From the NCBI GenBank assembly GCA_012727915.1, contig JAAYGD010000037.1, positions 1 through 44,505 on the forward strand: a stretch of DNA of 44,505 nt, written 5' to 3'. The position numbers and the translations under genes were made by a program. The stretch comes from Mycoplasmatota bacterium. GTDB lineage: Bacteria > Bacillota_I > Bacilli_A > RF39 > UBA660. Below the pieces are notes generated by a model that had not been told where the DNA came from, ran no database searches, and saw only the letters and a list, made by a program, of their open reading frames with translations. This document shows, piece after piece, positions 24,465 to 28,592 of this stretch. Every line of letters begins with the position of its first letter. Position 1 is the stretch's first letter.

Positions 24465-27400
24465 TTATTGATAACAAGTGTAATAACAAGTATCATAACA
24501 TGTGTCATAACATGTATTATAACATGTACCATAACATGTATTATAACATGTGTCATAACATGTACCATAACATGTGTCATAACATGTACCATAACATGTG
24601 TCATAACATGTATCACATTCATAAGATCTATAACAAGAGCCGCTAGCATAATGAGAAGAACCAAATGTTTTTACACAGAATGCACTGCATCCGCCCGCAC
24701 TAGTTATAGAGTAATTACAACCATAGTTTGATTTTACCGGATCATAGCAATAACATGTGCCAATATAATCCCAATAACAATTACAATCATGTGCATTACA
24801 ACTATATGGATTGCAACTATATGGATTACAACTATATGGATTACAACTATATGGGTTACAACTATACGGATTACAACTATATGGGTTACAACTGTATGGA
24901 TTACAATTATGTGGATTGCAGTTATGCGGATTACAATTATATCCATTACAATTATAAGAAGATACTGTTACCTGACAAGCTCCACTATTTCCCGCAACAT
25001 CATATACTATATAAGATCTTGTAGATGTAACATTATAAAATGTTCCCGCTCCACTTGAATATCCACTTCCTCCAGTGTCAGATGCAGTTACCGTTACTGT
25101 TACACCTGATGTTGAACCAATATTTGTCTTTGCTGTTGAACAAGTTGGTGCTGTTTTATCAATTCTTAATGTATACATATCTGAAGATACACTATAATTT
25201 CCTGCTGCATCTAATGCTCTTACATAGAAGTTCCAATTCCCTCCCCATGTTATTCCCCAATTCGTAGGCATTGCTGAAAAGTTTACATTATCATGAGAGT
25301 ATTGATAACTTGTTACTCCTACTACATCTGATGATGATTGTATTTGATATATATTTCTATTTGTCCATGTTCCACTTGGATATATTGCTCCAGATGTAGA
25401 ATCATATCTTAATGTTACAGTTGGTTTTGTTGGTCTATCTGTATCCGGATTTGCTGCACATGCTGATGTTGCTCCTGCCCATACTCCTCCTGATGCTCTA
25501 CTACTTGCGTCGTATGCTGCGACATGTATCCATGAATAGTATGTTGTTCCAGTATAACTTCCATTTGCTTTTAAATATAATGGATTCATATTTGATGAGA
25601 ATGATGTTCCATCTCCACTCCATCTAAATGGATCTGTTGAGCCACTCCATGCTGATATTTGAGCTGCTGTTGGATATACTCTTGCTGTATCACTATTCCA
25701 ACTTGATACATTTCCTAAATCTCTTGATCTATATGCCGTTCCATCAAATATCCATATTCTATATCCTGCTGCTCCTGTTACAGCATTCCAACTTAAACTT
25801 ACTGTCATACGTCCACTATTTACTGTACCAGTTCTTGATATTGCTGTAAATGTTGGTGATCCTAATGTATTTCCACTTACTGATGATGTTTGAGCTGATT
25901 CTACTAATGTTGCACTCCTTGCTTTTACTTTATAATACATTGTAGTAGACGTTGCTAAACTTCCTTGTACATAACTTGTTGATGTTGTTGTTCCAAGTTC
26001 ACTAAATGTTACATTATCTGTACTTGAATATACTACATATGTTGTTCCTGCTGGATTTGAATTTGCATTCCAACTTACCGTTATTTGTTGTCCTTGTGCT
26101 GTAGTCCCTCTTGTTGCTGCTAATGATGTTGGTACATTTACTGTTGTTGCTACACTTCTACTTCCTGTACCTATATTTCCTACTGCATCAATTATTTCAA
26201 ATGATACTGTATATGTTGTTCCTCCTGCTAATCCTGTATATGTATATGATGAACTTGCACTTGTTGTTACTAAACTTCCATTTAAATAATATTTATATGA
26301 TGATATTCCTGAACCAACTTCATTTACTCCTGCTATTGATAATGCTATTGTTGTTGGTGTTGGTGTTGTTGCAAAACTTGTATATGTTGGTATTGTCTTA
26401 TCTATCTTATATGCGTTTGCTACACTGCATGTTGTTGGTGTGCTTAAATTATTTACATTATCTACTGCTCTTGAACATAATGTATATTGTCCTGTTGCTG
26501 TAAATGTTGCTGTTCCTCCAGACGTTGATGGTGTACATGTTGCTCCCGTTGTTGTACTACAATATTGATAATATCCAAATCCGGATTGAGCATCTGCTCC
26601 TCCTCCTATTGTTATAGGTATATCTGCATTTACCCAATCTCTTGATGTTGGTGTATGTGTTGTTACTGCTGGTGGTGTTGTATCTACTCTATTTATTGGT
26701 GATGTACATACTAATGTATTTAATGATCTATCACTTATTGTTACTGTACATGTATTTCCATGTGCTGATCCCGTTGTACATGGCCCACCCGCTACATTTA
26801 TTCCTGATAATACATCTGTACTACTTGCCAATGTAAATGTTTGTGTTCCACTTGCTTTCCATGGACTTGGATTTGGTGTCCATGTTCCACATACTGGTGC
26901 TGTTCTATCGTATACTACTGTTCCTCCACTTAGTCTTATATCATTTGATATTCCAATATTTCCTGCTCTATCCATATATTCTGTTATTAATCCTACTACA
27001 TCCCCTTGTACTAATGTTGATTCTGCTATTGGTATTGTATATGTCTTTGTTACTGTTGATGTATTTATTCCATTTGTTGTTGTTGGTGTTCTTCCATGTA
27101 TTGTTGATGTTAAACTTCTTACTGGTTCTGTAAAGTTTGTTGTCATTGTTATAATATGCCCATTCTTTGCATACTTATTAAATGTATTATTTGATATTAT
27201 TGTTGTACTTGTTATAAGTGGTTTTATATTGTCATATACTACTAATCCCCCACTTGTTACATTTGTTGCTTCTATTCCTTCATTTTCATATATATCTTCA
27301 TAATCTTTTACCAATACTGATAATGCTTGGCTTACTAATAAACTCTCAAATTCTGGTATTTCATATGTTGCTACCCTTGTATTTCCGCTTCCTGTTACTG

Positions 27401-28169
27401 TTGCTGTTCTTCCTCCTATCAATACTGTTGGATCTGTTACTATCTTACTAAATGTTAAATTTAATGTTACTGTCTCTGAATTCCTTACAAATTTATTGTG
27501 ATATATATTATTACTCTCTGCTATCGCTACTGTTACTGCTGGATATGTACTATCTACTACATTTACTACTCTTGTTACTGGATCTCCTACATTTCCTTCA
27601 TTATCTGTTAAAGAATATGTTAATGTATATGTTCCTATTACATCCTTATTTACTGTTCCTGTTACTACTACTAAATCTGTTATTGTATTTCCATGTCTAT
27701 CAAACGCTACATATCCTGGATCCACATATACTTTTCCTTGCAACAAATAATATGGATCTTCTCCCAATAATATTATTGTTGGTTTTATATCTTCTGTTAA
27801 CAAGCTATCATATACTATCTCAAATTTTACATACAAATCTTCTTCTAATGTTACTTTTACTCTTGCATCTACACCTAGTTTTGTTATATCTTCTTCTTCT
27901 ATTAACCCTATATTTTTTAATGTTTCTAAACTTATTATTGTATAATTTCCTACTATCTTTAAATCTTTTGTTACTTCTTTATTATTTATTGTTGCATAAT
28001 CTCTTGCTGCATCTAATACTAATTCTTCTGTATAACTCTTTGATAATTCATCTGAATTTGTTACCATTCTTCTTATACTTGGAGTTGCTATTAAAACTAC
28101 TACTAAAAGTACTAGTATTGTTGCTAACATCTCTATCATTGTAAATCCAGATTTTTTTGCTTTTTTCAT
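24465..28169 (-). CDS. Giant prepilin-like surface protein with cysteine-repeat tail
   Basis: 1234 residues; ATG at 28169 with AAGGAG. The class III (type IV prepilin) signal is [18 protein letters not shown] with Glu at +5 and a hydrophobic helix ([15 protein letters not shown]). After a short pilin-like domain (40-125) comes a DUF5011/HYR-like domain (about 130-206). Then follow invasin-type Ig-like domains (about 207-430), further Ig-like segments and Fn3-like domains (about 650-900), and [18 protein letters not shown] modules. From about 1072 the tail has some 32 Cys: CNPYS-type pentads, a linker, then twelve TCYx tetrads. The helix would join a pilus or pseudopilus and present the rest outside. 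Adhesion, cross-linking or metal binding by the tail is inference. Thr, Ser, Tyr and Cys are enriched, unlike neighbours. Confidence 0.85.
24468..24611 (-). repeat. 12-bp tandem repeat encoding twelve TCYx units
   Basis: Twelve in-frame units (ACATGTTATGrN-type on the minus strand) encode [12 protein letters not shown] and similar, with Cys every fourth residue up to the last codon. Units are nearly identical in DNA, varying mainly in the fourth codon. Length changes by slippage would keep the frame. Confidence 0.92.
24783..24953 (-). repeat. 15-bp tandem repeat encoding CNPYS-type units
   Basis: Cysteine codons recur exactly every 15 bases twelve times (24948 down to 24783). Seven consecutive units read CNPYS, preceded by CNGYN and two CNPHN units and followed by CNAHD. 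DNA identity between units is very high, which indicates recent expansion. Confidence 0.92.
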
Positions 28170-28190
28170 AAATATACTCCTTAAGAAAAG

Positions 28191-28592
28191 TTATACTTCG
28201 TTTATATCACATAAAACGTTATCGGTTTGATAAGTACCACAAAAAATACACGGAGTGTAAGTATAATTTTCAGTATGAGTTTTAGTAACATATACATATC
28301 CTACACAAAGTGAATTATCAGTTAAATCATAAATTTTAGATAAATAATTGTTATTAGTTAAATCTAATAATCCAATCTTTATTCTTTCATTTAGTATTTG
28401 AGGTAAAGCAATATTATTTTCTAAAACATAATTATTTGATGCTTTTATTATTTCATTTTCTTTTACAGCGTAAGTCTTTAACTTAGTATCATCAATGGAA
28501 ACAAAAACATTTGGAACAATTATTGCCATTATAATTCCTAATACAATTAAAGTTGCTAATACTTCAACTAAGGTAAATGCTTTATAATTCAT
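28191..28592 (-). CDS. Small type IV prepilin-like protein
   Basis: 133 residues. Very short leader MNYKA, then FTLVEVLATLIVLGIIMAIIVP: pilin helix with Glu at +5; the residue before the cut would be Ala in place of the usual Gly, which prepilin peptidases tolerate in some minor pilins. The globular part has four cysteines near the C-terminus (LCVGY, PCIFCGTY, VLCD), enough for two disulfides. GAGGT precedes the ATG. The giant prepilin follows after 21 bases, so both are made together and may form a pseudopilus tip or fibre. Confidence 0.85.
   Translation of the reverse strand: MNYKAFTLVEVLATLIVLGIIMAIIVPNVFVSIDDTKLKTYAVKENEIIKASNNYVLENNIALPQILNERIKIGLLDLTNNNYLSKIYDLTDNSLCVGYVYVTKTHTENYTYTPCIFCGTYQTDNVLCDINEV

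Follow-up and report, generated by a model that had tools for sequence, protein, structure and literature searches.

Modular pilins, in which a class III N-terminus is followed by a large extra part at the C-terminal side, as in PilB of Streptococcus sanguinis, are already a described class, with over 1,200 proteins, 264 architectures, and lengths of up to 860 residues recorded in the available part of a survey (PMC8179133). A protein of the same general build, an open reading frame (ORF) of 1234 residues, is encoded in a stretch of 44,505 nucleotides from a Mycoplasmatota bacterium (assembly GCA_012727915.1, contig JAAYGD010000037.1), hereafter called the window. As in the modular pilins, its extra part is probably presented by a filament, perhaps at the tip; the window protein exceeds the surveyed proteins in length, and its end module, made of two arms of periodic Cys, is absent from the extra domains named in that part of the survey (PMC8179133). 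The initial annotation had taken the size to be exceptional for a pilin. This does not hold, since large modular pilins are described and several relatives have long frames whose N-terminus matches that of the pilin (e.g., 716, 831, and 930 residues); size alone is thus not new and the pilin shell is of a known kind.

The end module also recalls the "stalk and knob" formed by the ultralong complementarity-determining region (CDR) H3 of bovine antibodies where, according to the available parts of the sources, a stalk of beta-strands projects a variable disulfide-rich knob (PMC5994613, PMC8602281, PMC12371982). The likeness is one of use and not of descent, and no homology is claimed. The stalk of the antibody is not known to have a ladder of Cys repeats. 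Pentapeptide repeats (PF00805) share their five-residue period with only one arm of the module, named CNPYx after its unit, use residues different from those of that arm, and were not matched in the window protein (Pfam, E up to 1). To our knowledge, no repeat class has such a two-arm build. We propose, with a probability of roughly 0.58, that the end of the window protein forms an antiparallel ribbon laddered by disulfides, which would serve as stalk for a variable Cys-rich knob, the whole being mounted on a modular type IV pilin.

The C-terminal 163 residues (1072–1234) of the protein contain exactly 32 Cys, distributed between a first arm of CNPYx units (the 5-arm, C1074 to C1129 from first to last Cys), a head, and a second arm of TCYx units (the 4-arm, C1188 to C1232), as delimited in Table 1. 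In this respect the initial annotation was accurate, as it had reported a 1234-residue ORF with a prepilin signal (Glu5) and about 32 Cys spaced by exactly 5 and then 4 residues. Both arms are separate tandem arrays at the DNA level, with a 15-bp unit repeated 11.8 times and a 12/24-bp unit repeated 12.1 times (84–90% matches). A pattern of seven Cys codons at spacing 5 was matched in 15 of 193 genomes of the window's family and, with one locus inspected in each of these 15 genomes, the Cys frame was located inside a long ORF in the window only; in the remaining 14 loci it did not exceed 239 residues and a longer ORF was present in the locus. The Cys tail of the window protein is not a product of chance.

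What the initial annotation had overlooked is that both arms hold the same number of Cys (12:12, given here and below as 5-arm:4-arm), an equality that recurs among the modules of other bacteria and of phages. The arm count was defined strictly, as the longest chain of Cys at the exact spacing. The 24 distinct modules were reduced to 22 by clustering at 80% and to 21 by leaving aside L136, whose two chains overlap, whereas L109 was excluded from the test due to a stop between its arms; since loci were located by one-arm patterns, short arms are under-represented. The counts are equal in 12/21 non-redundant modules and equal or within one, as we expect of a two-arm module, in 20/21 (Spearman 0.82). 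Equal arms are found in bacteria (window 12:12, L071 6:6, L083 5:5, L256 3:3, L075 5:5, L092 6:6) as well as in phages (L105 5:5, L116 6:6, L119 6:6, L178 5:5, L111 3:3, L272 2:2). In permutations that ignore relatedness, P was 1e-5 for the summed difference (the floor with 100,000 shuffles) and 2e-5 for equality; leaving out the window, 11/20 modules were equal, with P of 2e-5 and 2.4e-4, respectively.

Bacterial carriers were identified by a scan of genome contigs that gave 30 loci, among which L071, L075, L083, and L092 were kept for harboring the two-part module in a long ORF and the remaining 26 were set aside by eye as short or wrong frames. The contigs of L071 and L083 are titled Bacilli (from roe deer rumen and from "Lapin," presumably rabbit, respectively) and that of L092 is titled Cytophagales. 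L075 (genome G728) is titled Saccharibacteria; it presents a Por_Secre_tail domain and a match to matrixin below the cut-off (22.7 of 24 bits). As this domain occurs in a genome of 3.1 Mb, L075 is probably mislabelled and of Bacteroidota type, the type to which L092 is also assigned. Within the window's family, a pattern of three Cys of the 5-arm was found in 4/386 genomes belonging to four genera, i.e., that of the window, those of L071 (same tail as L254) and L083 (same tail as L255), and that of L256. The prepilin N-terminus is present in the window protein and in L071; the ORFs of L083 and L256 run off the start of their contigs and their N-termini lie beyond the sequence. With a stricter pattern, a sample of the window's class yielded 1/395 genomes, namely the window itself; the class sample for the genome of L092 yielded 1/395, namely its own. 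The module is thus rare by the exact patterns used. The heads of the four pilins have no detectable similarity to each other beyond composition (z from −0.7 to 1.5), and the stalk is therefore the constant part of the module and the head the variable one. Another member of the window's family encodes a 120-residue open frame (114 from the first Met; G040:C4:16984-17142, in L244) with 20 Cys and many Asp, which lacks the two-arm pattern and may represent either a small protein rich in Cys or an incorrect frame.

In viral contigs, which stem from uncultivated phages, the 5-arm scan identified 25 contigs, and in many of them the module is an internal insert. A scan for the 4-arm alone (TCY followed by a codon VAN) identified 28 contigs, and the 5-arm was found in the same ORF in 26 of them; the two exceptions are L109, where the 5-arm lies in the next ORF past a stop, and L198, without a qualifying ORF of 100 residues. 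Reciprocally, 40 contigs were collected from 5-arm scans, 30 with an ORF of at least 100 residues holding at least two 5-arm units, and the 4-arm was present in 25 of these 30. A looser TCY pattern matched at least 120 stretches of viral contigs; among the matches listed, most ORFs (many of L129–L233, with TCYI or TCYV) are short frames made of 12-bp repeats such as ITCYITCY, and these were excluded by demanding both arms within one ORF. The scaffolds that carry the module as an insert are of more than one type. That of L116 is Gly-rich and tail-fibre-like (PF21722 Gly_rich_2, 4.9e-9), the best PF21722 stretch (161–335) lying almost entirely behind the module, and L122 resembles the same domain weakly; both match tail families of PHROGs. 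Among the neighborhoods tested (L104, L116, L178), strong tail-fibre neighbors were found in two and a weak one in L104. When compared with PHROGs (E up to 0.1), the scaffold type of L104, L105, L111, and L118 gave no match; it may be jelly-roll-like and belong to a tail protein. The tail module is hence not specific to pilins, being also present in phage tail-type and secreted-type proteins. Accordingly, the pilin signal and the Cys repeats do not go together in every homologue, a point that the initial annotation had asked to be checked, and the tail is no evidence for a new surface system specific to pilins.

The phage scaffold family to which L104 and L105 belong (37 loci, L271–L307) has one variable Cys-rich insertion site occupied by very different inserts among relatives, and looks like a display scaffold. 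In L300, a relative without insert, the site reads WWAAVPRYSLSDGVYLSSIDVI, which, judging from its letters, looks like a plain beta-hairpin. L300, L302, and L303 are also phage proteins with several Cys-rich stretches split by long C-terminal polyproline runs.

Several of these loci inform on the geometry of the module. In L075 the arms are linked by 5 residues only, so that any pairing between them would have to be antiparallel. Both arms of L111 are interrupted after their third Cys by a Thr/Ser-rich insert of 8 residues, which gives spacings of 13 (5 + 8) and 12 (4 + 8); mirrored inserts of this sort would be required if the arms were strands paired residue by residue. The order of the arms is swapped between L104 (5 then 4) and L105 (4 then 5), whose N-terminal scaffolds are 44% identical. 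Together with the stretch found in L300, these features fit a pair of antiparallel strands in which the CNPYx strand is longer by one residue at every rung. The parity of Cys provides a further argument. The total is even in 16/16 modules outside the phage family A2, in 8/8 whole ORFs of A2 (several being near-duplicates and L106 incomplete) and, for the phage scaffold family, in 28/28 distinct stretches that start at the scaffold motif and extend to the frame end, or 21/21 after clustering at 50% (L295, one of the 28, seems to continue into another frame). Among control ORFs of the same loci (at least 150 residues and at least 2 Cys), some of which may not be genes, 12/22 are even. Since the totals are mostly even, disulfides are indicated, and the disulfide ladder is the best supported of the three guesses made in the initial annotation.

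According to the mechanism that we propose, the C-terminal 163 residues would form a two-arm module in which the CNPYx arm, with five residues per Cys, runs antiparallel to the TCYx arm, with four. One disulfide per rung would join the arms as in a zip, and at each rung the additional residue of the CNPYx side would be accommodated as a bulge. The product would be a stiff ribbon, its length depending on the number of rungs, 12 in the window. The part between the arms, 58 residues with 8 Cys in the window and probably disulfide-bonded internally, would make a small variable knob at the far end, which could bind a surface or a ligand. This stalk and knob would terminate the Ig (immunoglobulin)-like rod of a prepilin and would thus probably be presented outside the cell, perhaps where a type IV filament ends.

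Several observations weigh against such a ladder. The arms are unequal in 9/21 modules under the strict rule, i.e., L104 (5:9), L110 (6:5), L121 (5:6), L122 (4:5), and five A2 phages with 4:5 each (L106, L112, L118, L123, L176). Bridging one break brings L104 to 9:9 and L111 to 6:6, but L119 to 9:6, and the number of equal modules stays at 12/21. When one member per lineage is resampled, the mean rho is 0.77 and the 5% value falls to 0.34. As to parity, A2 modules trimmed at the strict ends of the chains have odd totals in 6/6 rows, and an odd total is found for 5/7 whole ORFs of B-type phages when counting starts at the first Met (17, 23, 23, 17, and 17, against 14 and 12), although the three-plus-three tabulated modules of these phages are even. 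No oxidase of the DsbA type (PF13462) was found over the cut-off in the genome of the window (873 kb in 76 contigs, 93.8% complete), where the best score was 14.9 of 23.2 bits. Finally, in two AlphaFold2 models the 4-arm is drawn as a helix and not as a strand, with a block predicted local distance difference test (pLDDT) value of 65–78 for the window and 38–63 for L092; the mean pLDDT of the models is 52.7 and 54.5, too low for them to decide for or against the ribbon.

These models would suit an arrangement that keeps the cross-arm disulfides, the TCYx arm being a helix and the CNPYx arm being coiled round it as turns, and indeed the 5-arm of the window is drawn with repeated short turns (HHH--). 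We nevertheless consider this unlikely, as the models are of low confidence and built on 8 and 11 aligned sequences, and as the equal inserts of L111 and the hairpin-like empty site of L300 speak for a pair of strands. Residues such as Thr, Tyr, and Cys moreover favor strands.

That the tail is a metal-binding rod was another guess of the initial annotation; with the regularly spaced Cys binding metal as thiolates, as in metallothioneins, such a rod would agree with the density of Cys (32 in 163 residues) and with the oxidase score below cut-off. Mostly even counts and equal arms argue against it, since metal binding requires neither of them and parity is even throughout the scaffold family, and a Pfam search with the window protein (E up to 1) listed no metallothionein family; we regard it as quite unlikely.

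The many regularly spaced Cys that end a surface-type protein might instead join neighboring proteins into an adhesive or a bundle. However, matched counts in a single chain, the short joint of L075, and the even totals all favor pairing within the chain, and nothing was found in favor of the self-cross-linking adhesive initially suggested, which makes intermolecular cross-linking improbable. We judge equally improbable that the arms are low-complexity tails without common structure, expanded neutrally by slippage. This would account for two tandem DNA arrays with 84–90% matches, for their occurrence in few genomes (4/386 in the family by the exact pattern) and for the differences between adjacent units of the window, which amount to 10 nonsynonymous and 2 synonymous codon changes in the 4-arm and to 7 and 14 in the 5-arm. 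However, two unrelated repeats that differ in period would neither keep their counts matched nor recur together in unrelated proteins. Moreover, Cys is present in 12/12 units of each arm, the nonsynonymous changes of the 4-arm are confined to the fourth, variable residue of the unit, and all variation at Cys and Asn codons is synonymous across the 11 tabulated units of the 5-arm. Lastly, that the repeats are substrates of a radical S-adenosylmethionine (SAM) peptide maturase cross-linked by thioethers, like the Cxxx-repeat targets of TIGR04114, which share a Cys at every fourth residue with the TCYx arm, is hardly credible and was rejected, because the match to this arm is weak (16.1 bits for a cut-off of 20, the best stretch spanning just 18 residues) and the TIGR04115 maturase was not found in the window genome, while the CNPYx arm is unmatched.

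As far as our searches reach, the two-arm module is apparently undescribed. Nothing specific to it was retrieved from Pfam with the window protein and eight carriers, nor anything over the cut-off from NCBIfam with the window protein. In PHROGs, five of seven carriers had no match at all and the two others, L116 and L122, matched through the Gly-rich scaffold, one match spanning the module. A profile of 11 modules had no match among PDB sequences at E up to 1. Two module proteins compared by tblastn to 50,697 records of named phages, and one tail compared to 72,556 plasmid records, gave no match, both being weak negatives since BLAST masks simple repeats. Among the papers searched, none contains TIGR04114 or any of five repeat strings of the module. 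On balance, we lean slightly towards a new architecture in which two unrelated repeats, of periods 5 and 4, would evolve in lockstep as the rails of one disulfide ladder and make a stalk of adjustable length for variable Cys-rich knobs; through either exchange or convergence, it would occur across distant groups in type IV pilins, in secreted proteins, and in tail-type proteins of phages. If true, two different repeats would have to keep pace in number, the count of one arm predicting that of the other, and pilins and phages would have in common a means of keeping a variable binding knob clear of the surface. Such a stiff stalk, whose shortest clear form has about 50 residues (L075, 5:5), would also be a useful part for protein engineering.

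Table 1. Location of the giant prepilin gene of the window, of its parts and of adjacent features (aa, amino acids; CDS, coding sequence).
Feature	Positions	Strand	Basis
Giant modular prepilin CDS, 1234 aa	24465..28169	(-)	
Residues 1-36, class III (prepilin) N-terminus with hydrophobic helix and cleavage site (G|FTMIE)	28062..28169	(-)	TIGR02532
Bact_surface_Ig-like domain, residues 134-204	27558..27770	(-)	PF16403, 4e-15
Further Ig/Fn3/OmpL47-like beta-rich stretch, residues 205-1071	24957..27557	(-)	Weak matches
5-arm, residues 1074-1129, CNPYx units with 12 Cys exactly 5 apart	24783..24950	(-)	Sequence; 15-bp tandem array
Head (putative knob), residues 1130-1187, 58 residues with 8 Cys	24609..24782	(-)	Sequence
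4-arm, residues 1188-1234 (C-terminal end), TCYx units with 12 Cys exactly 4 apart	24468..24608	(-)	Sequence; 12/24-bp tandem array
AGGAG ribosome-binding-like site, 7 nt 5' of ATG	28177..28181	(-)	Sequence
Small pilin-like ORF, 133 aa, directly upstream of the giant prepilin	28191..28592	(-)	N_methyl 24.7 bits > 21.2

The pilin nature of the giant protein is indicated by its cleavage signature (G|F with Glu5) and by the NCBIfam model TIGR02532, which scores its N-terminus at 20.8 bits for a cut-off of 16.3, and at 26.7 bits in the genome-wide prepilin scan; the Pfam model N_methyl is marginally under its cut-off (21.1 vs. 21.2 bits). The non-pilus parts present C-terminally to this signal, by which a modular pilin is recognized, are the PF16403 domain and the Cys module. 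The initial annotation had assigned about 1000 residues to Ig/Fn3-like domains, which is plausible: one domain is clear (PF16403) and the rest matches weakly, with for instance an OmpL47-type match of 29.5 bits for a cut-off of 40 in the stretch that follows. The gap between the small pilin-like ORF and the giant prepilin is 21 bp, and both probably share one transcript.

The same genome encodes 12 prepilin-type N-termini over the cut-off, an ATPase of the T2SSE/PilB type (PF00437, E 4e-126), and a prepilin peptidase (PF01478, E 4e-19). It also harbors other long Ig-type pilins, among them two on contigs C59 and C49 of G000 (L245, L246) that are broken by contig ends and closely resemble each other in part; the one on C59 has at least 723 residues, and repeats may have broken the assembly there. 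Two further ORFs fuse a prepilin-like N-terminus to a Gly-rich sequence (L251:2759-4132 and L071:5810-6475); one adjoins a gene for a T2SSE/PilB-type ATPase and the other is located directly downstream of the module pilin of L071.

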